Below the pieces are notes generated by a model that was not told the origin of the DNA, searched no databases, and saw only the letters and a list, made by a program, of their open reading frames with translations. A DNA stretch of 36,340 nucleotides, taken from positions 1 to 36,340 of IMG/VR virus record IMGVR_UViG_3300011128_000251, one strand, 5' to 3'. How positions within the stretch are numbered: the first letter of the stretch is position 1; every line of letters starts with the position of its first letter. This document shows positions 7,632 to 19,452 of this stretch, piece by piece. This DNA is from a virus. Position numbers and translations under genes: made by a program.

Positions 7632-8120
7632 CTAAAGATCTGTCAGGGCTTCCGGCTTTGCTTTTTCCTGCGCGCGCGCCAGTCTCTGAAACGCCCGAGC
7701 AACACCTTTGCGGCTAGGCCCGTTATGCACAAGTCCAGCGCGATGAGAAGGCCCACTGCGCCAGGTAAGAATGCCTGACCCCATGAGGGCAAGTAGAAGA
7801 CCAATTCCGCATGCATCTGAGAGCCTGTACCAGTTCAGCGGGTGCGCCCCGAAGGCGACAACCGGAAGGTAGCACAGCGGAATGAGTATGGCGAATAGTA
7901 AAGCTATAATACTGGGCCTAGTAGAAATAACTATTAACGCTACGGCAACTGACCAAATAGTTAATGCTGCCAAGTCGTGAATTCTGGGTGGCCAGCCCGC
8001 CTGCGTCGCAAGCAAGCCAGCCAGGACGATGACCGCCCCAATCATTGCTGACCGATCGCGCACCCACCACAAGCCGACAATCATGACGGCCGCAGCGGAT
8101 GCCCAGATCGGCCACCACAT
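7632..8120 (-). CDS. Multi-pass membrane protein, end of late operon
   Basis: A protein of 162 residues from the ATG at 8120 (163 from a GTG at 8123). It has about five hydrophobic segments, including AAAVMIVGLWWV, MIGAVIVLAGLLA, IWSVAVALIVIS, IIALLFAILIPLCYLPVVAF and IGLLLALMGSGIL, and a basic cytoplasmic-type tail (around RKGVARAFQRLARAQEKAK). The ATG overlaps the stop of the upstream gene (TGATG). Being last in the lysis cluster it could be an extra holin-like or host-envelope protein; no family is recognised. Confidence 0.65.
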   Translation of the reverse strand: MWWPIWASAAAVMIVGLWWVRDRSAMIGAVIVLAGLLATQAGWPPRIHDLAALTIWSVAVALIVISTRPSIIALLFAILIPLCYLPVVAFGAHPLNWYRLSDACGIGLLLALMGSGILTWRSGPSHRAGLVHNGPSRKGVARAFQRLARAQEKAKPEALTDL

Positions 8121-8374
8121 CACTTGCTCCCGAAGTTCAGTTCAGGATCACCGCGCTCAGCGCAGGAGCGGACACTCCGATGCCAGTGCAGCTTGTCGAA
8201 GTACATCCGGGAGAATGCCTCGGTATGGTCGAGATAGTCCTTGTTGCAGTCGTCCTCTGCGAACGGCCTGATGTCGTTCAGCAGCATGATGAAAATCTCG
8301 CGATCGGCTTCCTCGCTCACGGCAAGCCGCTTCTCGATGCCTGACAGCACTTCCTGGTTGCTCAGTTTATCCAT
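8120..8374 (-). CDS. Hypothetical soluble protein in lysis cluster
   Basis: An 84-residue charged protein starting MDKLSNQEVLSGIEKRLAVS, with DIRPFAEDDCNKDYLDH in the middle. AAGGAC lies a few bases before the ATG. It is not related by eye to known lysis proteins; function unknown. Confidence 0.65.
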   Translation of the reverse strand: MDKLSNQEVLSGIEKRLAVSEEADREIFIMLLNDIRPFAEDDCNKDYLDHTEAFSRMYFDKLHWHRSVRSCAERGDPELNFGSK

Positions 8375-8393
8375 TTGTCCTTGATGTCCTTGG

Positions 8394-8660
8394 TTAGCGG
8401 CAGCTTGCCGTCATTGCGTTGTCCATCTCGAGAACGCGGCGCTTGACCCCGTCCGGAGTGGCTGGGGCGTCTGCCCCGATTAACCCACGCTTCTGCTCTG
8501 CGTAGGTCTGGCAACCAGGCTTATAGCCCCCGGTCGCGCAGCTCGCTGTCAAGCTCGTCAGAAGTAGCATCAGCAAGCCGCTCGCGAGTATCGCTGGCCG
8601 CCTGCCGTCCTTCTGCAACGCGCTTGTCCGTCTCTTTCCGCTGGTCCAGTTCCATGTCAT
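8394..8660 (-). CDS. Rz1-like outer-membrane spanin lipoprotein, nested in Rz
   Basis: An 88-residue frame that starts inside the Rz-like gene in another frame and runs past its end, the classical nested spanin layout. The N-terminal region is basic (around GKRRTSALQKDGRRP), followed by a hydrophobic core (AILASGLLMLLLTSL) and lipobox LTAS-C near residue 41. The mature part is short, with CATGGYKPGC and a basic middle. AAAGGA lies eight bases before the ATG at 8660, which supports this long start; starting at the inner ATG (8570) would leave too short a signal peptide. Role: bridges the periplasm with Rz to fuse inner and outer membranes at the end of lysis. Confidence 0.78.
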   Translation of the reverse strand: MTWNWTSGKRRTSALQKDGRRPAILASGLLMLLLTSLTASCATGGYKPGCQTYAEQKRGLIGADAPATPDGVKRRVLEMDNAMTASCR

Positions 8661-8769
8661 CCTGTGCGTCCTTTCGGATCTTCGCCCGGAGCGTGAGCGC
8701 GGCCAGGATCAACGCCCCGGCCACCGCAACCCATCGCCCGATCTTCGATGTCGCAAACCATGTGAACAT
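8521..8769 (-). CDS. Rz-like inner-membrane spanin
   Basis: An 82-residue protein with an N-terminal membrane anchor (RWVAVAGALILAALTL, about 12-27) and a long charged helix to the C-terminus (DDMELDQRKETDKRVAEGRQ and on), as in i-spanins. It directly follows the endolysin (TAATG overlap) and contains the start of the Rz1-like lipoprotein gene in another reading frame. The spanin call rests on topology and nesting rather than sequence identity. Confidence 0.8.
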   Translation of the reverse strand: MFTWFATSKIGRWVAVAGALILAALTLRAKIRKDAQDDMELDQRKETDKRVAEGRQAASDTRERLADATSDELDSELRDRGL

Positions 8770-9521
8770 TATCGGATCCCGTCAGCCCACTTCTTCAGCC
8801 GCTCGCGCATGATAAAGAACGCGGCCGCGATGATCAGCATCATACCAACTGCGAGGATCATCTGCACGTTTTCTGATGCACTTTCCCAGATCGCGGTCCC
8901 GAACGCACCCAAGGCGGCTAGAAGCTGAAAGAGCGTGGCCATGATCGTCTTGGACTGAATCGGGTGTTCCTTGGGCGGCGTGTCCGGCTTGTCGATCACC
9001 GGAGGCGTGACGGGTTCGTCATCCGTCACACCGTAGCCCTCAGCCAGCAGCGCCGCGTCGTAATCCTTGGCAATGCCTGCGATAGCCGCGGCCTTGTCCG
9101 TGCCGTTGACGATCCTGCGGGCGCCCTTGTAGTCCGACTGCTGCAGGGTGATGTAGTCCCGGAGCTTCTTCCCGGTAAACCAGCCTTCCTTGCAGCCAGC
9201 CACGAGGATCTCCGCGGCCGTGGTCGGTTCCATTGCCACCGCCGGGTTCGTCGTCAGATCCATGTGCAGTTCTTTGCCGGCGCGCACATAGTTGCGCTCC
9301 CACGTCAACTGAACGTAGCCGCGACCGTGCCATGGATAATAGCGGAGGTTGTTCTTACGCCATGTCTCGGACAGCCAGTAGGCCTCCTGCACGGGATGCA
9401 TTGTCCGGTTGGTTTCCCAGAATGCCGTGGCCAGCACATACGCCGCCTGGTTCCTGAGTAAGTCGAAGTCCTTGCATGTTTCGATGATCAACCTGGTATC
9501 GCCTAAATCCAGATCCGCCAT
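8769..9521 (-). CDS. GH19-type endolysin with C-terminal membrane segments
   Basis: A 250-residue wall hydrolase. Residues about 1-160 match the glycoside hydrolase 19 (chitinase class I-like) endolysins: ATAFWETNRTMHPVQEAYWL (31-50) with the likely catalytic Glu36 and Glu46, the GRGYVQLTWERNY hallmark (66-78) and ARRIVNGTDKA (134-144). A Pro-rich linker (170-186) is followed by two hydrophobic segments (about 194-211, and 220-238 around MILAVGMMLIIAAAFF) and a basic tail. This fuses a peptidoglycan-degrading domain to a holin-like hairpin, so the enzyme should be membrane-tethered. AAGGAC precedes the ATG. It is the first of three coupled lysis genes, ahead of Rz and Rz1. Confidence 0.88.
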   Translation of the reverse strand: MADLDLGDTRLIIETCKDFDLLRNQAAYVLATAFWETNRTMHPVQEAYWLSETWRKNNLRYYPWHGRGYVQLTWERNYVRAGKELHMDLTTNPAVAMEPTTAAEILVAGCKEGWFTGKKLRDYITLQQSDYKGARRIVNGTDKAAAIAGIAKDYDAALLAEGYGVTDDEPVTPPVIDKPDTPPKEHPIQSKTIMATLFQLLAALGAFGTAIWESASENVQMILAVGMMLIIAAAFFIMRERLKKWADGIR

Positions 9522-9534
9522 GTGTCCTTGTCCT

Positions 9535-9885
9535 TTATCGCCTCACGGAAACGACGTTCAATGTCACCCTGTTGCTCGTCGTCTCGATTTCAAACGTCTG
9601 CTCGAGCCTGTCACCGGAAAGGCTACCACACTTATCGCGCACCCACTCGGGAACGCTGGTTGCTGGCTCGCTGCTTAGATCGATCGTCCGGACGCAGATA
9701 GTCACGTCATCACGCATGAGCCTTTGCGTGGCTGTTCCTGACGGGCTGTCTCCGTTTACCAGGAATGAAGTCGTCTGGAAAATAGGGGTGGGCTTAGGCC
9801 CGCTCGCGACCTTCCACGTATCGACGGCGGTCCAGACGGATACTACCGCCAGAAACGCTGCCCCCAGTATGGTTGAAATGTGCAT
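9535..9885 (-). CDS. Membrane-anchored or exported hypothetical protein
   Basis: A 116-residue protein with an N-terminal hydrophobic segment (TILGAAFLAVVSVWTAVD) and a soluble region containing two cysteines (VTICVRTIDL and RDKCGSLSG) that could form a periplasmic disulfide. It sits next to the endolysin, with only a 13-base gap. Function unknown. Confidence 0.62.
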   Translation of the reverse strand: MHISTILGAAFLAVVSVWTAVDTWKVASGPKPTPIFQTTSFLVNGDSPSGTATQRLMRDDVTICVRTIDLSSEPATSVPEWVRDKCGSLSGDRLEQTFEIETTSNRVTLNVVSVRR

Positions 9886-9888
9886 TCG

Positions 9889-10095
9889 CTATTCCCAAAA
9901 CGCCTTGATCAAGTTCTTGCTGAATGCCACAACCAGGCCCGCCACCAGAAACGCGATCGCTTTGAACCACAGCCACATTTCAGCCTGACGCTCCTTCAAT
10001 ACGGTCGTCGTCTGCTTCAGATCGTTGACGTCGTCCTTAACGTGCTGAACGTCTGCTTTAATCTTACCACGCCACTCAGCATTTTCATCACTCAT
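9889..10095 (-). CDS. XhlA/hemolysin-like small holin candidate
   Basis: A 68-residue protein: an N-terminal coiled coil (about 8-40: KIKADVQHVKDDVNDLKQTT and on) followed by one membrane helix (AIAFLVAGLVVAF, about 46-58) and a short basic end. This is the topology of XhlA-type (haemolysin) phage proteins, which often assist or act as holins. Its place beside the endolysin agrees. The identification is by topology only. Confidence 0.65.
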   Translation of the reverse strand: MSDENAEWRGKIKADVQHVKDDVNDLKQTTTVLKERQAEMWLWFKAIAFLVAGLVVAFSKNLIKAFWE

Positions 10096-10232
10096 TTTCC
10101 TGAGTCCCCTCCAACATCAGGCAGAACCCCACGCCAAGGACGACGACGTGACAGCCGCTCACCACGGGTCCAGCCGGCGCAAGGGTGGTGCCCCCGAGCA
10201 GACGCGCCGACCTTCACCATGATTCCGGTCAT
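10092..10232 (-). CDS. Doubtful small frame, possibly frameshifted
   Basis: A 46-codon frame with AGGGA six bases before its ATG and an ATGA overlap with the next gene. Its product is rich in Arg, Gly and Trp and looks out of frame. A second frame, open from 10214 to 10088 without a conventional start, reads ARLLGGTTLAPAGPVVSGCH then VVVLGVGFCLMLEG, a much more protein-like small membrane sequence. Joining MTGIMVKVG to it would need a one-base shift near 10200. Either a mutation, a sequencing error or recoding could explain this. Confidence 0.3.
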   Translation of the reverse strand: MTGIMVKVGASARGHHPCAGWTRGERLSRRRPWRGVLPDVGGDSGK

Positions 10233-10248
10233 ACTGCTTCCCTACCAG

Positions 10249-10467
10249 TTAATTTGTCGGCACATCACGAACAACCATGCCAACCATCTTGTCCGGCCAG
10301 GAGGCAATCACATGCGGCGTTGGGTCTTCTGCGAACAGGAAGAACCGGCCGCCCCGGAATTCCATTTCGGTGATCTTCCTGCCCTCGATTTCATCGCCAA
10401 TCTCGACGGTGCCCCGGCCTAGAATGTTGGCCTTGCTGATCTGTCCGCGGGTGTATGTGTTCGGCAT
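10249..10467 (-). CDS. Small beta-rich hypothetical protein
   Basis: A 72-residue protein starting MPNTYTRGQISKANILGRGT, with alternating charged and hydrophobic residues (VEIGDEIEGRKITEMEFRGG) suggesting a small beta barrel. The downstream 150 bp holds only the doubtful frame described separately. Family not recognised. Confidence 0.62.
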   Translation of the reverse strand: MPNTYTRGQISKANILGRGTVEIGDEIEGRKITEMEFRGGRFFLFAEDPTPHVIASWPDKMVGMVVRDVPTN

Positions 10468-10475
10468 GGTGGTTC

Positions 10476-10892
10476 CTATTCGATTCTAAGCGTGCCAGAG
10501 AAGCGACGTTGCAGGCCATTCTCGTCGGTGTATTCCCAAGATGCCAGCGCAGCATCACCGGGCAGGATTTCGGGGCATTCGTCGTCTGTCCAGTAACTCG
10601 GGTCCATCGCCTGGCTGGGCTCCCCGTTGTAGGGGAACGTGCCGCCGCCAGCGCATAGCGGCACCAGCGTTTCGTCATCAAGTTCCCGCCAGATCCTGGC
10701 AGACCATTTGCCGTTGATCACCTGCGCGCCGCTCACTGAGACGTGCTGATAGAAATGCCCATTCTCGAAGCGCAGATATTCCAGTTCCATCCTGACCGGA
10801 TCGACGGTTGCAATCGTGCTGATCATCACCGTCGCAGCGTATCCCAGAAGCGCGAACAGCCCGACCGTGATCGTTGAATAGACGGTGGTCAT
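10476..10892 (-). CDS. Membrane-anchored hypothetical protein
   Basis: A 138-residue protein with an N-terminal hydrophobic helix (VGLFALLGYAATVMISTIA, about 10-28) and a soluble, aromatic and acidic C-terminal region with two cysteines (VPLCAGGG and DDECPEIL), likely periplasmic. The start at 10892 overlaps the upstream stop (ATGA). Function unknown. Confidence 0.65.
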   Translation of the reverse strand: MTTVYSTITVGLFALLGYAATVMISTIATVDPVRMELEYLRFENGHFYQHVSVSGAQVINGKWSARIWRELDDETLVPLCAGGGTFPYNGEPSQAMDPSYWTDDECPEILPGDAALASWEYTDENGLQRRFSGTLRIE

Positions 10893-11101
10893 GGCATTAA
10901 CCCCAGCGCGCTCAGGAGGTCCTTCCCCCCCATTGCGATTCCGGCCGCCAGCCCGATGGCGATACCCTTCCAGTTGTTGAAGATGGCGAGCAGCGCCGAC
11001 GTTACCGGCCATGCGTCGTGCGCCTTGCGGGCACCCTCCCATAGATAGGCATACTCCTCGGGAGTTTCAGGCGGCGTGCGCCTGTCTGATGGATTAACCA
11101 A
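10889..11101 (-). CDS. Small membrane protein, holin-like, TTG start
   Basis: A 70-residue protein. The N-terminal half is hydrophilic (NPSDRRTPPETPEEYAYLW); the C-terminal half is hydrophobic (around GIAIGLAAGIAMGGKDLLSALGL). The only upstream start in frame is TTG at 11101, seven bases after a good GGGAG SD. It is the first gene after the tail fibre, at the head of the lysis block, so it may be a holin component. Confidence 0.58.
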   Translation of the reverse strand: MVNPSDRRTPPETPEEYAYLWEGARKAHDAWPVTSALLAIFNNWKGIAIGLAAGIAMGGKDLLSALGLMP

Positions 11102-11172
11102 ATTATAACTCCCGCTCTAGCCCTTCCGCAACCACTTTGCCTTGCGCTCGGGCCACCCAATCAAAGAACCAA

Positions 11173-11201: not shown

Positions 11202-14200
11202 CTACGTGTAGTTCACCCGGATCTCCAACTGGTCGGTTGCCGCCAGGACAGGCGTTTCCGCTGTAGCGCCACACGAGAAGTGAATTCCGAAGTTGGTCCC
11301 GCGCACTTCACTATCTGTGATCGAGGTTCCCCAGACGTCGGTATCACCTCCAGTGGATGGGATGGTGATTGTGTCGCCTGTAGCAGAGGTCACAGTGTCA
11401 GACGTTGGACTTTTTGCAGTGCCGTCGTTGGTCGATCCGTCCACCGTGATGAATACGTTTGTGTAGTACCAAGGCCGCCCGCCGATATCACTTTGACTGT
11501 CTACAAACCTGACCTCAATTCCGTTGATGGTAGAAGATGCCGGAATCTCTCCAGTGGAGAACCCAAAGTTGGTTGCGAAGACGCCCTCCGCATACTCTGC
11601 GGTGCTGGACCCGATGAAGAGGTTGGCATTGCTGTTGTCTGCTGTGGCAAGCACCGAAACGCTCGGGGCCGGATCCCATTCGCCGCCAGCGTTGGCACCG
11701 TCGATCGCCACGGTGCCAGCGGTGCGCCAGGCAGTCCATTGGGAGCTTGCAGCCGCATCAGTGGTGAAGCCCGATGCACTCGACACCGCGGAATCGTTCC
11801 CAGCAGCATCGGCATGTTGGAAGTGGGTAGTGTAGGCCGTCGACGCCGTAAGCCCACTCGGGGCGGGGGTGATGGTCTGGACGCCCGTGCCTGAAACGGA
11901 TTGATTGCCGGAGGCTGTGGCGGCGGTGCCTGTGTTGTCCTGTCCCGCCTGGATTTGCGCCACGGACGGGGCTGTGCCGCTGGTTGTCACGACCCAGTAA
12001 AGCGTGCCGTTCCCCTCGTTGGTCGAGACGGAACCCGTAGACGCAGTCTCACCGTTTGAGGCATCAGTCGGCGAGGACAATGTTGGAGCAGTCACATCAG
12101 GTGCTGCGTCAGTGGTGAAGCCTGATGCGCTTGCCACGGTCGAGTCATTGCCAGACGCATCCGCATGCTGGAAGTGCGTTGTATAGGCGGTTGATGCAGA
12201 CAGGCCCGAGGGCGCAGGAGTGATCGTCTGCACGCCGGTTCCCGATACCGCCTGCGATGCCGAGAACGCTGCTGCCGCACCGGTGTTGTCCTGGCCTGCT
12301 TGGATCTGGGCAACGCTGGGTGCCGTCGCTGACGTCGTGACAACCGCGTACAATATGCCGTTGCCTTCGTTCGTGCTGACCGATGCGGTTGATGCAGTGT
12401 CGCCGTTAGCGTCGTCTGTAGGAACGGTCAGCGTCGGCGGGGTGACGTCAACACCTGCGTTTGAGGTAACGCGCCAGTGATTGTTATCATCGGAAGTGGA
12501 CACCCGACCGGTGCCGGTGGCGTTCGTGTAACGGAACATCATGTCGTAGACGTTGTTGCCCGCCGTTGCCGTGATGTCCTGGATGCCCGCCGTGGTCCGT
12601 CCGAGGTTTTGCCAGCCCGATCCGCCATCAAGGCTGTATTCGATGTTGGTCAGCACTTCCGGAACCGAGACGACCGTGACCTGGATGCCAGCGGCGCCCG
12701 TACCCGTGGCGACCGTGATTTCGTCCGTCTGCGGTGCGTTCGGCACAACCGGGATACCCTGCACCAGTTCCGAGAGGCGCGTGGCAACTGCTGCGGATTC
12801 GGCGATGAACGTGGCCGTGACCCCGGCTTCCCAGGTTACCGTTGCTGTGGGATACGGAACAGGCGTCACACCTTCCCGAACCATCATGATTGTCCAGATG
12901 GTCATACCCTGGATTGCGTACCAGTCCGGGTTGCCGTGCGGTGCCGCGTCCGAGTACCAGTCCGCGCAGGTGTAGTCGTTCAGGGCCGTGCCGCGGATGG
13001 CATCCCAGATGAACTCCATGACGTCGACCGAGCCGAACGTACCGGTTGGCTGGGCTGCAGAAGCACCGTTGACCAGCGTTGTGTTGAACCAGTCCCTGCG
13101 CGCGTTTCCCTTACAGTAGCTGGACCATTCGGTGAACTCCTGCCGCGTGGTTACCGCGGGAAGACCCGACCACGGTACAGACAGGACGCCGGGCTCCGGA
13201 ATGGATGTGAGGATCGAGACCTCGGGGTTCGTGCCCCACTGGGTGTTGAAGAAAGCCCAAGTGCCGGCCATGCCGTTGACCGCACCATCGTATGCGGTGC
13301 CGCTGGTGGGCTCCCCGATGAAGTTCTGCGCGTCCACGAAGATGTGATCGACGTTCGCGCCAACCGCTCCGGTGGTGTGCACGAAGTTGTTCGTCAGCGG
13401 GTTCGTCAGGTTCGGCAGCGTTGTGTAGTCAATGATGACGTCGCCCGAGGACCGCAGCGTTACGTTGCTCGAGACCTCAGATGCGTTGCCAACGTATGCG
13501 CCGCCATCTTCCGGGAGGTTGCCGTTGTGGGTCAGGCTGACAACATGCCAGTACCAGTCTTCATCGATCGTGGCCGTGCCAGCAGTGACTGTCAGGAAGA
13601 AGGAACTGTTCGCCGACCCGCCCGAGTTGGTATAGGTCGCCGTGATGTTCTCTGCGTTGATCGTGCCAGTCGCGACCGTGTCGACCGAGATAACGCCGGT
13701 TCCTGTGTCGATCGTCACGCCCGGGTCACTGGTTGCCAGAGAGAACGCACCGCCTGCACCTGTGAAGTCGCCAGCAGTTGCGATCGTCTGGACGCCCGTG
13801 TTGCCGGTATATGTCTGGTTAGGCAGCGCGCCAAGTGCGCTTGGTGGAACATACAGCGGAGTGTCGCCGATTGCGTCCGCCGTGGCCGAGCCCTGCGAGT
13901 TGGTGGCCGTTTCCTCGCAACTGATCAACTGCTGATCGTCAGCCGCAACGAGCGTGTATGTGCTGGACGTCGCGCCTGGGATGTTCACACCGGCGCGCGT
14001 CCACTGCGTTGTGATTGTCGGCGTCGGGTTGCCGGTCCATGTGCCAGGCTGACAAGATACCGTTTCGCCAATCTGGAACGTGCCAGCCACGATCGGCAGG
14101 ATCGTATTGACCGGAGCAACGAGCGCCGCGCCAACTGCGATCTGGAATGACGTTGCAGCCGATCCCGAGACGTTCGTCCCGGTGAACTCGACAACCTCGA

Positions 14201-14892: not shown

Positions 14893-16917
14893 CTAGAACT
14901 TGATGAACTGCCAGGTAATCCCGCTTGTTGGTATCGCTTCCAGCACCTGATTGGTATTGAAATCGAAGTTCGTGATCAGTCGCGCCGTGGTCGCGGAAGT
15001 CCGGAACATGCACGTACCGCTTGCCAGGCCGTCCCGATCCCGGATCAACGTATTGATGTTGTACGTCGTGAAATCAGGACCGCCTGTGAATGTCACGGTG
15101 TCGCCGACAACACTGGTGATAACGATCTGTGCCGTGGTGTTGGGCGAAGGCGCAGATGGCGTTACGAAGTCGGTGCCATCTGAAAGCTGCTGGTTCGTGA
15201 TCGGCGCAATCGTGTCAATGCTGCCGAAACCGAACATTGCCGCATATGCGTTGACTGCCACAGGGTCCGACGATTCCAGCTTCACATAGGCGCCTTCGTT
15301 GAACGTCACGTTGCTTGCATTGAAATTCAGGAACTCGCGCGATCCGGAAAGCGTTGTGCTGTTGAACGTCTTGAAGCCAGCGTTACGAACCACCGACCCG
15401 CCAGTTGTTAGCCCGCTCATGACCTCGCCCGGAACGACGTCCTGGCTTTCGTGGCGGAAGTTGATCGACCCGCCCTCGAAGACCAGGTGCCCCTCCTGCG
15501 CTGTGTTGCCGTTCAGATCGTACAGGCGGTGGATGCTCTCGAAGTCCGAATCAATGAACCGGATCGGACCCGGCTGCGACAGACCGCGCGCACTGACCAA
15601 CCGGCCAATGTAGCCCGCACCGTAGCAACCGTTGAGGCTGCCCAAGAAGCGACCGTTCTGGCGTCCGTGAATGTCCGTGGCGACGACCGTATGCACCCGG
15701 TTGAACGCGCATCGCGTCAGACGTGAGTTGCGCGACTGGCTGTTGCCGACCGACCATGCATCCCGCACGCAGGTAAACCGCGTATCCTCGGCCCCGGGGA
15801 AGTCACCATTGGCGTCGTAGTCACCCGGCTGGACAACCACGCCAGCGTCAACCGACATGATTTCGAGCCCGTTCATTTTCACGTCCGAGGACTGATGCCC
15901 GGATCCAAGGTAGGTCTTGCCAACGTAGCCGCCACCCGGAGGCGTGGGCCCTGCAATCGGATCGATCGCAATAGCGGAGGGAGGCGAGTACCGCTGACGA
16001 ACCCCAAAGATGCCTTCCCAGTATGCGTCGGTTGTGGGCGTCACGCCCGTGGCCACGAAGTTGCTGGTGTCGATCGCGACATTCCCGATCAGGCCAATGT
16101 CCGAGATCCGAGCTCTGCGCACGCCGTTGAATGAAACGATCGGCCATGCGTCGTTGAATGGCCTAAGGCGCGTGGATGCATCCGAATATGCCCCGTTGTA
16201 CGTGCAACCCAGACCGCGGACGAATGGCGGTGCTTCCAGCGTGCCCACACCGTCGCCGATGTCCAGGTTGCCGATCAGGTCGCCGATCAGCAGCACGTTG
16301 CACTTGAGCGCCGTCGCCGCAACAATGGTGCCGTTGAGAACCGCAGTGTCGTCGCCGCCGATGCCCGTCTCGCCACACTGCAGGTTGCTGATTTCGCCGT
16401 TCAGCGGCATGCCCTGCCAGAACTGACCGTCTGCAGATTGCGTGCTGAGCAGGTGCCCCGGATCCGTCGGGACGTTGGCGAAGTACGTGAACCCGCCGTC
16501 ATTGTTGGATGTACGGCCTTTGACCGCAACCTGTGGCGTCCCGGCTGGAACATAGGCAGCGGCCAGCGATGCGAAGTCCTCGAAGACCAGGATACTCGAC
16601 GTGACCGTGCCGCCCGAAACCGGGTTGACCGCAAACTGGAAGTGATCCTGGAACCCGTCCCAGTAGTAGATCACATGCACGTTGACGTCTGACGTATCCC
16701 GCCAGAAACGGTGCGCAATCAAGTCGGTAGGCCGCGTGGCCGCTGCAACGAAGCCACCCCATGCCGCCGCCTGGGACGCAGCCAGTGACCGCATTCCGTC
16801 GTTTACGTTGGAAGGCCGGCACCCCTCGCCAAGATTGAGGAACCCGCCCGCGCCATCCGGAAACGACGTGTTGTCGTCCGCGTTCCGGCTAAACTCATTC
16901 GGTAGGATGTCGACCAT
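14893..16917 (-). CDS. Tailspike-like protein with beta-helix fold
   Basis: A 674-residue protein. The N-terminal about 150 residues (MVDILPNEFSRNADDNTSFP and on, with a WRDTSDVNVHVIYYWDG strand pair) look like a virion-binding head domain. The middle (about 180-520) has short, repetitive turns rich in Asn, Gly and Asp, for example GNVAIDTSNFVATG and RFIDSDFESIHRLYDLNGN, as expected for a right-handed pectate-lyase-type beta helix. A beta-rich C-terminal region follows. Tailspikes of this type bind and often cleave host polysaccharide. No specific catalytic residues could be assigned. It starts 304 bp downstream of the SleB-like gene, across the opposite-strand membrane gene. Confidence 0.75.
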   Translation of the reverse strand: MVDILPNEFSRNADDNTSFPDGAGGFLNLGEGCRPSNVNDGMRSLAASQAAAWGGFVAAATRPTDLIAHRFWRDTSDVNVHVIYYWDGFQDHFQFAVNPVSGGTVTSSILVFEDFASLAAAYVPAGTPQVAVKGRTSNNDGGFTYFANVPTDPGHLLSTQSADGQFWQGMPLNGEISNLQCGETGIGGDDTAVLNGTIVAATALKCNVLLIGDLIGNLDIGDGVGTLEAPPFVRGLGCTYNGAYSDASTRLRPFNDAWPIVSFNGVRRARISDIGLIGNVAIDTSNFVATGVTPTTDAYWEGIFGVRQRYSPPSAIAIDPIAGPTPPGGGYVGKTYLGSGHQSSDVKMNGLEIMSVDAGVVVQPGDYDANGDFPGAEDTRFTCVRDAWSVGNSQSRNSRLTRCAFNRVHTVVATDIHGRQNGRFLGSLNGCYGAGYIGRLVSARGLSQPGPIRFIDSDFESIHRLYDLNGNTAQEGHLVFEGGSINFRHESQDVVPGEVMSGLTTGGSVVRNAGFKTFNSTTLSGSREFLNFNASNVTFNEGAYVKLESSDPVAVNAYAAMFGFGSIDTIAPITNQQLSDGTDFVTPSAPSPNTTAQIVITSVVGDTVTFTGGPDFTTYNINTLIRDRDGLASGTCMFRTSATTARLITNFDFNTNQVLEAIPTSGITWQFIKF

Positions 16918-16948
16918 GCTATTTAGCCCTATCTTTTATTGGCGGCGG

Positions 16949-16957
16949 TGATATAAT
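16949..16957 (+). promoter_or_regulatory. Extended -10 promoter for the antisense membrane gene
   Basis: TGATATAAT is a perfect extended -10 element (TG-n-TATAAT). No good -35 lies 17 bases upstream, as is usual for extended -10 promoters. Transcription should start at about 16964, one base before the ATG at 16965, so the mRNA would be leaderless. Confidence 0.6.
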
Positions 16958-16964
16958 GCCCCTC

Positions 16965-17216
16965 ATGGAACACGTATCCGGCTTGACGCCCCCGCAATTC
17001 GCCCTTGTTGTTTTCTCGGTTCTCGTGGCTATCAGGGTCATCGATTACATCGTCCAGATCATCACGGCATCGCTTGTTGACGCCCCTGTCGCACTGATCG
17101 CCGTTTTCATCTTCGCGCCCTGCCTGTACATCGGCCCGACCATCATCGGCTTTTCGTTCATCTTTCCCGAAACCCTCGGCTGGGTCCGTGAAATGGCGAT
17201 TGGCTGGATCTCGTAA
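16965..17216 (+). CDS. Plus-strand membrane protein, candidate moron
   Basis: An 83-residue protein starting MEHVSGLTPPQFALVVFSVL with about three hydrophobic segments (LVVFSVLVAIRVIDYIVQII, then VALIAVFIFAPCLYIGPTII, then a weaker IIGFSFIFPETLGW). Third codon positions are mostly G or C, as in true genes of this phage. It is the only plus-strand gene inside the minus-strand virion operon, ends four bases from the SleB-like stop, and has its own consensus promoter. That is the definition of a moron: an independently expressed cargo gene, often for lysogenic conversion or superinfection exclusion. The ATG at 16956 lies within the promoter, so 16965 is chosen. Confidence 0.7.
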   Translation: MEHVSGLTPPQFALVVFSVLVAIRVIDYIVQIITASLVDAPVALIAVFIFAPCLYIGPTIIGFSFIFPETLGWVREMAIGWIS

Positions 17217-17220
17217 GCCA

Positions 17221-19452
17221 TCACTGATCTGCAATCACGGGGGTCGCACTGGCCCCTATCTGCTGGAGGCGGCGCTGTAGCTCTGCTTCCAGCGCTTTTT
17301 GCGTAACAGTCTTGCCCACCGGTGCCCCTCCTGCTGCCATGTCCCGCACTGCCTGCGCGGCGTTACCGGTCATTCTTTTGCTGCCCGCCTGCGCCGCCTG
17401 ACCTGCCAGCGGAACAAGAATCGCCCCAAGAGGCCCGCCTACTGCTGCGCCGCCCGCGATACCTATGGACCCGCCAAGGAAGTTCGTTGAACCGCTCCTG
17501 TCGAATGATAGCTTGCCGAGCACCCGTAGTCCACGCTCGGTTAGGTTGCCCCCTCGCGTAATCTGGCGCATTGCCGCGATTTCATCCTTGCTGAAACCAC
17601 GCAGCTTTTTCTTGTTCTTCAGCAGCGCACGGAACCCAATCCGCACGCCGTTTTCAAACCCCGATGCAGCATCCCCAGCCTTCTCGATCACATCTTCAAT
17701 GATTTCCGCCCGGCGCATCTGCCCCCAAAGCGCGCGCCCCTCGGCCATCTGCTTGGGTGCGTCCCCGACAATGCCCCCGATAAGATCCTTGTCCTTCAGG
17801 TTCGCAACGAAATCATCCATCTCGTCAATCATCATACTGGCCAACCTACGCTCGTCAGGCTCCAGGCTCTTTGCAGCGGTTCCCACCACCCGGCGAAGTG
17901 TCTGGAGATTGCCCAGCGTCGGCGATCCCGTTGCCGCATCCTCAAGCACGCGCGTAAGTGCGGCATAGGCCTTGGGGTGAAGCGTCTTGTCGATGCCTTC
18001 CTTGGCGATCTTGGACTGCAGCTTCAGCGCCATATTGCCGAACGCTGTCGGTGATACCACCGCGCCATTCTGCTCAGCCGCCTTGAACAGCGCCCCGGCC
18101 TTGGTTTTCATCTCCTGGAGCGTCGGAGCAACCGCCTTGATCGTCGGGCTTCCTACTGCTGTCTTCGCAAGATCCAGAACCTTCTGGACGCCGCGGCCAG
18201 CGAACGGCAGCGCAGCACTCACCGCACCCGTTACCGTTGCCACATCTGCAGCGTTCTCCAGCCGGTTTTCCAGCCCGCCTTCACCCTCGCCAAATCCGTA
18301 AACGCCACCCTGCGCCGCGCCAGTCGCGCCGCCCACAGCGCCCTTCACCGGAAGACTTGCACCCTTGACCGCGCCCATCGCCGTACCAGCGGGAACGGCC
18401 AAAGACGCACCAGCACCCGCCATCTCAGCGGCACCAGTCAACAAGGGGTTGGTTTCACGCGCCTGCGCTTGCTGTCCTCGCTCTGCCTCAAGCGCCCGGT
18501 CATACCGTTCACCGATTGGCTGGCTGTAATCAAACAAACCACCCTCTGGCGTCTTGCCCAGAACTGCAGCCTCTGCGGCCGTGAGCTCGTCACCAAAGCC
18601 CGCCGCTGCGCCCTGTGTAAAGGCGTCAAGAACCGTACTGCCAATTCCCTGCCGATCGGGCGGTGCTGGCAATCCCTGCGGCCGCGGAGGCATCATCCCA
18701 TGCGCGGGGCCCTGCGGCATCTGTGGTGCCTGTGGCTGCGCTGGCTCAAGCTGGGCAAGCGCGTTCTGCACGTCTGCAGCGTCACGCGGGTCCGGCATCA
18801 TTTGTGGCTGCTGGCTTTGTCCTGCCTGTGGCTGCTGCACCTGTTCGGTCGGTGGCGTCATTCCACGCCGGCGCGCTTCCGCTTCAAGGTCATTCCGGTT
18901 GTACAACCCACGGCGACGGGCCTCTGCTTCCAATTCATCCCGAGACGGGCCACCCTGCAGCGCAGTCGCGCCACCGCCGCCCTTGACCATGCTGGCATCC
19001 ACGCCACCGCGGTCTGGGCCTTTCTGGACAACACGCCCCGCATCAGCGTTGCCAAATACATGGTTGCCGATCGCCCGAAACGGCTTGCCCTTGGCCCACT
19101 TCGGATTCGCAGCCTTGGGATTGAAATAGTGCGTAGCGCCCTCGGTCGGGTCTTCGTACTGACCGGCCAGAACAGCGTTGGCGATCGCCTGGCTTTCCTG
19201 GCTCGGTGGCCGCCAGAAGATATCGTTGGCACCCTGGCCTTTCGCGTAGCCGGTCACATCGTTGATTGCCGAGAACTGTCCGGGCTTCGTGATGACCCCT
19301 TTGATGCCATCGCCATAGCCGCCCGTTTTCGCGCGGTTCCGGATCACGGCGCCAACCGCGAGCTTGCCCATAACGCCTTCTTGCCCAGCCTCCGCATCCA
19401 TGATGCGCGCGAGCATGTCGGCTTCACTCATGCCTTCGAATGATTTTACCAC
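17221..19452 (-). CDS. Virion ejection protein with N-terminal SleB-like wall hydrolase
   Basis: A 743-residue protein. Residues about 10-135 match the Cell wall hydrolase SleB family: IMDAEAGQEGVMGKLAVGAV (17-36, likely catalytic Glu21), VIRNRAKTGGYGDGI, PGQFSAIND and THYFNPKAANPKWA (107-120). Then come low-complexity Pro/Gln-rich sequence (about 200-270), Gly/Ala-rich segments that could insert in membranes (about 350-400), and helical domains. This order (lytic domain, then long membrane-active region) is that of podovirus internal virion proteins that open the wall during DNA entry. The start is GTG, overlapping the upstream stop, with AAGG seven bases before it. It carries a nine-residue motif, QKGPDRGGV, shared with the 168-residue neighbour protein, and a duplicated LEAEARRRG motif (about 174-197). 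Confidence 0.85.
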   Translation of the reverse strand: MVKSFEGMSEADMLARIMDAEAGQEGVMGKLAVGAVIRNRAKTGGYGDGIKGVITKPGQFSAINDVTGYAKGQGANDIFWRPPSQESQAIANAVLAGQYEDPTEGATHYFNPKAANPKWAKGKPFRAIGNHVFGNADAGRVVQKGPDRGGVDASMVKGGGGATALQGGPSRDELEAEARRRGLYNRNDLEAEARRRGMTPPTEQVQQPQAGQSQQPQMMPDPRDAADVQNALAQLEPAQPQAPQMPQGPAHGMMPPRPQGLPAPPDRQGIGSTVLDAFTQGAAAGFGDELTAAEAAVLGKTPEGGLFDYSQPIGERYDRALEAERGQQAQARETNPLLTGAAEMAGAGASLAVPAGTAMGAVKGASLPVKGAVGGATGAAQGGVYGFGEGEGGLENRLENAADVATVTGAVSAALPFAGRGVQKVLDLAKTAVGSPTIKAVAPTLQEMKTKAGALFKAAEQNGAVVSPTAFGNMALKLQSKIAKEGIDKTLHPKAYAALTRVLEDAATGSPTLGNLQTLRRVVGTAAKSLEPDERRLASMMIDEMDDFVANLKDKDLIGGIVGDAPKQMAEGRALWGQMRRAEIIEDVIEKAGDAASGFENGVRIGFRALLKNKKKLRGFSKDEIAAMRQITRGGNLTERGLRVLGKLSFDRSGSTNFLGGSIGIAGGAAVGGPLGAILVPLAGQAAQAGSKRMTGNAAQAVRDMAAGGAPVGKTVTQKALEAELQRRLQQIGASATPVIADQ

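Follow-up and report, generated by a model that had tools for sequence, protein, structure and literature searches.

An inverted gene for a putative membrane hairpin between the ejection-protein and fibre genes of a short-tailed phage, a candidate SieA-like moron

The DNA analyzed in the current work (here called the window) is the whole 36,340-nt IMG/VR virus record IMGVR_UViG_3300011128_000251, the ends of which may be missing. Matches to SU10-type families, which belong to short-tailed phages, were obtained for its portal, capsid and adaptor proteins. Minus-strand coding, corresponding to the late genes, extends from 8120 to 36334 (28.2 kb) and is interrupted by a plus-strand open reading frame (ORF) at 16956-17216, which specifies a hydrophobic protein of 86 aa (83 aa when begun at the ATG at 16965) and was delineated by means of codon use and GC3, hydropathy, an AlphaFold2 model and sequence shuffles. 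This ORF is convergent with a minus-strand gene (17221-19452) for an ejection or internal virion protein of 743 aa, 4 bp separating the two stops, and divergent from a minus-strand gene (14893-16917) for a 674-aa protein, with 38 bp between the starts. The ejection protein contains an N-terminal cell wall hydrolase domain (PF07486) and a C-terminal region in common with the injection protein of phage phiGT1, this region also matching proteins of NYA-2014a, EBPR podovirus 2, Vibrio phage 1.275.O and others; the matched proteins of these phages are annotated as injection or structural proteins. Family searches with the 674-aa protein gave no match, and its presumed role as a fibre is taken from its tail-fibre or tailspike position, the gene being syntenic with the tail fibres of phiGT1, NYA-2014a and pCB2047. 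The interval between the ejection-protein and fibre genes is referred to below as the slot, and the ORF located within it as the slot gene.

A probable lysis region occupies 8120-11101 of the minus strand, where a GH19-like endolysin gene (8769-9521) is accompanied by genes for small membrane proteins, to which holin and spanin roles may be ascribed from their sequence. A TATAAT at 11102-11107 (minus strand) represents a possible separate promoter: it immediately precedes a 70-aa ORF (10889-11101) that begins with TTG and heads this region.

The preliminary description of this locus had presented the ORF as the only plus-strand gene in about 28 kb, and it is indeed the sole convincing one in the 28.2-kb block, with a coding score of 0.18 as compared to 0.088 for the runner-up plus-strand ORF. 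Its codon use, which had been called genuine-looking, was set against that of 43 antisense ORFs within long genes, which were 70 aa or longer and had been picked on length and containment only: the slot gene outscored all of them (synonymous codon score of 0.208, the maximum among the controls being 0.149), and its GC3 of 0.75 matches that of the other window genes. A 101-aa ORF opposite the slot gene was rejected, its codon score being -0.099. Among the 103 plus-strand ORFs of at least 50 aa located between 8.1 and 34.4 kb, a GRAVY value above 1 was obtained for the slot gene only. When the gap was subjected to dinucleotide shuffling, a plus-strand ORF of at least 83 aa was generated in 109 of 1000 shuffles, and comparable hydrophobicity in none. 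Judged by these properties the slot gene is real and protein-coding, and the earlier observation of an antisense membrane gene in the virion operon is confirmed.

The slot gene possesses its own putative expression signals, being an extended -10 for the ATG at 16965 and a Shine-Dalgarno sequence for the ATG at 16956. The extended -10-like TGATATAAT (16949-16957, plus strand) predicts a transcription start at 16964, so that the earlier reading of a start one base 5' of an ATG holds for the in-frame ATG at 16965. The sequence TGNTATAAT occurs once in the window and at least once in 21 of 100 window shuffles, and a scan for a -35 matching the extended -10 found none. The longest form of the slot ORF begins at the ATG at 16956, within the extended -10, and is preceded by the Shine-Dalgarno-like GGCGGTGAT (16944-16952, plus strand; duplex with the 16S 3' end), followed by ATA and then the ATG, which is an ideal spacing. 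The corresponding duplex of -12.3 kcal/mol ranks third among 52 scored start sites of the window, which were chosen by the analyst from the ORF list and not from annotation; random 20-mers reach -10.0 kcal/mol at the 5% level and -12.9 kcal/mol at the 1% level. Because the -10 and the Shine-Dalgarno sequence overlap in bases, each raises the chance of the other and the sequence cannot separate the two readings. The leaderless status earlier assigned to the gene is not established, since the same bases provide a strong Shine-Dalgarno sequence for the ATG at 16956.

A TTGACA located 35-36 nt 5' of the slot ATG is conserved in phiGT1, pCB2047-C and the contig L133, and was considered as support for a leaderless transcript; it was dropped as evidence because the phiGT1 copy adjoins the complement of the fibre gene's ribosome-binding site. 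Immediately 5' of their slot ORFs, phiGT1 (L083) and pCB2047-C (L129) have GCCGACATATACGGC in common, an imperfect dyad that is present in a diverged version 5' of the slot ORF of L133 and that might be an operator.

Of the three hydrophobic segments initially attributed to the slot protein, two correspond to long helices (residues 12-37 and 43-69), the third being only a short C-terminal helix (73-85), according to both hydropathy and a single-sequence AlphaFold2 model with a pLDDT of 71. With neither a signal peptide nor a lipobox, the modelled protein looks like an integral inner-membrane helical hairpin. Searches of the phage collection, IMG/VR, PHROGs, Pfam and PADLOC retrieved no homologue of the 86-aa protein, and a fold search with its model returned generic helical matches only (E of at least 0.66). 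No close relative of the whole window was found in the phage collection, single-protein scans of IMG/VR with the 743-aa and 674-aa proteins gave no matches, and the contigs reached through the capsid had head genes in common, none of them matching the ejection-protein alignment.

A slot gene is also carried by phiGT1, where gp20 is inverted and next after the ejection gene, and the GenBank note to gp20 mentions small inverted frames at this location in closely related phages. Unannotated two-helix ORFs, each inverted behind the ejection-protein gene, were found in the Sulfitobacter phages pCB2047-A (L128, 36803-37033, plus strand) and pCB2047-C (L129, 10303-10533, minus strand), and in EBPR podovirus 2 (L086, 12848-13051, minus strand). 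For recovery of further contigs from IMG/VR, a six-sequence ejection-protein alignment could not be used in pattern scans because of its divergence, and scans with the phiGT1 or the EBPR ejection protein alone gave no matches, while a closer three-sequence alignment retrieved 22 contigs. Among the closely matching ones, an inverted two-helix ORF is present in all ten slots of the phiGT1-like clade (L130, L131/L132, L133-L140). As a control, 184 antisense ORFs with a minimum length of 50 aa were taken from within the long genes of these contigs, and two helices were predicted for 3 of them; the contrast is strong without being a formal test, the slot ORFs having been picked by eye from the same listing.

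A profile hidden Markov model (HMM), constructed from twelve two-helix proteins from which the ejection-gene overlap had been trimmed off, identified 18 loci (near-identical ones counted), all of them slot ORFs inverted behind an ejection gene. Most of these loci are in the training set, and their E-values are therefore not independent; the unannotated ORFs of EBPR podovirus 2 and of a Paracoccus prophage, which are outside it, were matched at 6e-13 and 1e-9, respectively. Within the family, the proportion of comparisons showing a difference is 0.553, 0.440 and 0.659 at codon positions 1, 2 and 3, respectively, which is expected when the encoded protein is under constraint. The family, to which phiGT1 gp20 belongs, resembles the slot gene of the window in its location in the slot, inverted orientation and similar size (51-93 aa, depending on start choice), and the model of the member L137 (helices 3-29, 36-55 and 61-67; pLDDT of 82) has the same predicted order of long, long and short helices as the slot-protein model. 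It differs from it in that most members overlap with the ejection gene at its 3' end, which the window slot gene does not; moreover, the slot protein is not among the 18 loci retrieved by the family HMM (hmmsearch --max, E<=1), and its alignment to the family by hhalign had a probability of 0.1%. This two-helix membrane family is largely unannotated and is named here as a testable one.

Other envelope-directed proteins are encoded at the same location. An inverted lipoprotein gene occupies the slot of NYA-2014a (SUFP_017) and of EBPR podovirus 2 (gp30), the latter phage possessing both the lipoprotein and a two-helix protein; a homologue in RHph_I3_18 (EVC14_017) is inverted and flanked by an ejection-type gene and the late gene that follows, and another, in PBC5, is inverted and adjoins structural genes. 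These EBPR-type lipoproteins are like the slot gene in being inverted and envelope-directed, and in their slot position in NYA-2014a, EBPR podovirus 2 and RHph_I3_18, whereas they differ from the slot protein in being exported and unrelated in sequence. A Rap1a-domain protein is found in the slot of L139 besides the two-helix ORF, and the slot lipoproteins and Rap1a-domain proteins are exported, having signal peptides. In L134 (5104-5900, minus strand) and L135 (5100-5795, minus strand) inverted trios were observed, consisting of a lipoprotein, a membrane protein of approximately 120 aa and a two-helix protein; inverted Rap1a-domain (PF18602) genes near an ejection-protein gene were observed in L139 (5122-5445, minus strand) and L113 (6616-7032, minus strand).

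In relatives the slot is almost always, although not universally, occupied by an inverted gene for an envelope protein: no slot gene was found in G862 (L119), L144 and L147, and gene order differs in Octadecabacter DB virus 2. In G766, RHph_N3_2, Vibrio 1.275.O and L151, inverted ORFs that are very short and contain hydrophobic stretches are possible slot genes. Ejection-protein genes were also encountered in L113, L115, L164 and L165 (from the Rhodobacterales-group genomes G296, G052, G960 and G962); within the parts read, no portal, capsid or terminase gene appears to lie near them. An AAA-domain gene is located directly upstream of the ejection-protein gene in L113, and a phage-type integrase gene approximately 2.8 kb upstream of it in L115, and both L113 and L115 have HTH genes plus an inverted envelope-protein gene downstream; these four stretches are possibly satellite-like elements.

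The arrangement of the window can be compared to that of phage P22, in which gene 16 (plus strand) ends at 13313 and is followed, 22 bp further, by the inverted sieA (13336-13830, minus strand), which has its own promoter, with gene 9 (plus strand) downstream. This gene 16-gene 9 interval was described by Villafane and colleagues as the "ant moron", a variable and independently expressed slot (PMC2629481), and for SieA an exclusion mechanism and three predicted membrane segments have been reported (PMC10883804); a feature of SieA is a block of DNA injection, with escape mutations in ejection proteins. Like sieA, the slot gene lies in inverted orientation with an ejection-protein gene on one side, towards which it converges, and a receptor-binding gene on the other, and it encodes a small, presumably integral membrane protein. 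As in the P22-type ant moron, its neighbours are the ejection and fibre genes, and the content of the slot is variable and absent in some relatives. The moron-like character proposed earlier is supported by this position and by the inverted envelope-protein genes in relatives. The two systems nevertheless differ: SieA and the slot protein have no sequence similarity (best BLASTP score of 14 bits, E of 0.46), SieA (164 aa) is about twice as long as the 86-aa slot protein, and the slot of the window lacks mnt/arc/ant-like neighbours. In membrane topology, the three predicted segments of SieA may be set beside the two evident helices of the slot protein and its short third one.

The preliminary description had regarded the gene as a lysogeny or carrier-state factor, and had taken the presence of two leaderless genes to imply expression outside lytic growth. 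The window record gave no match to the integrase family PF00589, the only one searched for, in a record that may lack its ends, with positive controls in 14 of 14 genomes; pCB2047-A and pCB2047-C do carry integrase and repressor genes, and phiGT1, which has a slot gene, was described as lytic (PMC10386132). The lysogeny role is thus not established, and the argument from two leaderless genes does not stand because no integrase was found and the lytic phiGT1 carries a slot gene. By the same token, an exclusion role needs no lysogeny.

Coding capacity, orientation, slot position, a hydrophobic two-helix product and the recurrence of a class of inverted genes for envelope proteins in the slot are read directly from the sequences. 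With a rough probability of 0.45, the slot gene is considered to be a moron with its own expression, the product of which resides in the inner membrane and, acting like SieA, keeps competing phages from ejecting their DNA. According to this proposal, the slot gene would be an accessory gene located in the ejection-fibre insertion slot and expressed independently, its product would form a helical hairpin in the host inner membrane, as modelled, and, by analogy with P22 SieA, this hairpin would keep a second phage whose ejection proteins are similar from ejecting its DNA productively. Superinfection exclusion, a role raised in the preliminary description, thereby obtains strong positional support from the P22 sieA slot and from the slots of relatives; SieA-like activity, direct target and timing of expression are what we infer for the slot protein, the P22 mechanism being carried over by position and topology alone. 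Against the exclusion reading, helical hairpins are common, the slot protein is unlike SieA or the slot families in sequence, and some relatives lack a slot gene.

Considering that the EBPR-type lipoproteins and the Rap1a-domain proteins, which are other tenants of the slot, carry signal peptides and are exported, and that a receptor-blocking cargo would be sensible beside a fibre gene, the product could instead alter the host envelope, by receptor masking, periplasmic protection or an effect on host fitness, rather than act on DNA passage across the inner membrane; this appears unlikely for a protein that lacks a signal peptide or lipobox and resembles an integral inner-membrane hairpin. Distinctly unlikely is an accessory lysis component, such as an antiholin or second holin, encoded outside the lysis cassette. 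Small hydrophobic hairpins are often holins or antiholins, and lysis is the best-known phage context for them, but in the window the usual location for lysis genes on the minus strand is already taken up by those for an endolysin and several small membrane proteins, so that the slot gene is not required as the sole holin of the phage, and phiGT1 has an annotated holin and o-spanin besides its slot gene. Furthermore, inversion would cut the slot gene off from late transcription, and lipoprotein and Rap1a-type tenants suit envelope protection better than holin function.

It was also considered that the slot has a chiefly regulatory function, the ejection and fibre genes being tuned by plus-strand transcription or by a divergent promoter, with the protein itself mattering little. 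The tight spacing towards both neighbours is in line with such a function, as is the statement that the P22 ant moron affects tailspike levels (PMC2629481), but codon use and hydrophobicity of the slot gene point to protein-level constraint and the two-helix family varies most at codon position 3, which renders this explanation very improbable. That the ORF is a chance antisense frame from which nothing is made would accord with the frequency of ORFs of that length in gap shuffles and with the failure to find a homologue; it is nearly discounted by a codon score above that of 43 of 43 spurious antisense ORFs, by a hydrophobicity equalled in 0 of 1000 shuffles, by the strong Shine-Dalgarno sequence and by the genes of relatives in the same slot and orientation.

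Returning to the exclusion reading, a broader form of it, which is speculative and rather unlikely to hold, is that short-tailed phages of Alphaproteobacteria, whether lytic or temperate, generally use the ejection-fibre gap as an exclusion locus, where unrelated inverted envelope proteins are exchanged, each matched to the neighbouring ejection protein. Hairpins, lipoproteins and Rap1a-type proteins would then be alternative tenants, cells would exclude phages with similar ejection machinery, and the window slot gene would be one unmatched tenant. By the present findings the ant-moron/sieA arrangement of P22, familiar from phages of enterobacteria, is extended to distant podoviruses of Alphaproteobacteria. 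Should the genes in the slot be exclusion genes that are matched to the adjacent ejection proteins, new superinfection-exclusion proteins could be sought by genome position only, and many natural pairs would be available for studying the recognition of divergent ejection proteins by proteins of the SieA type.
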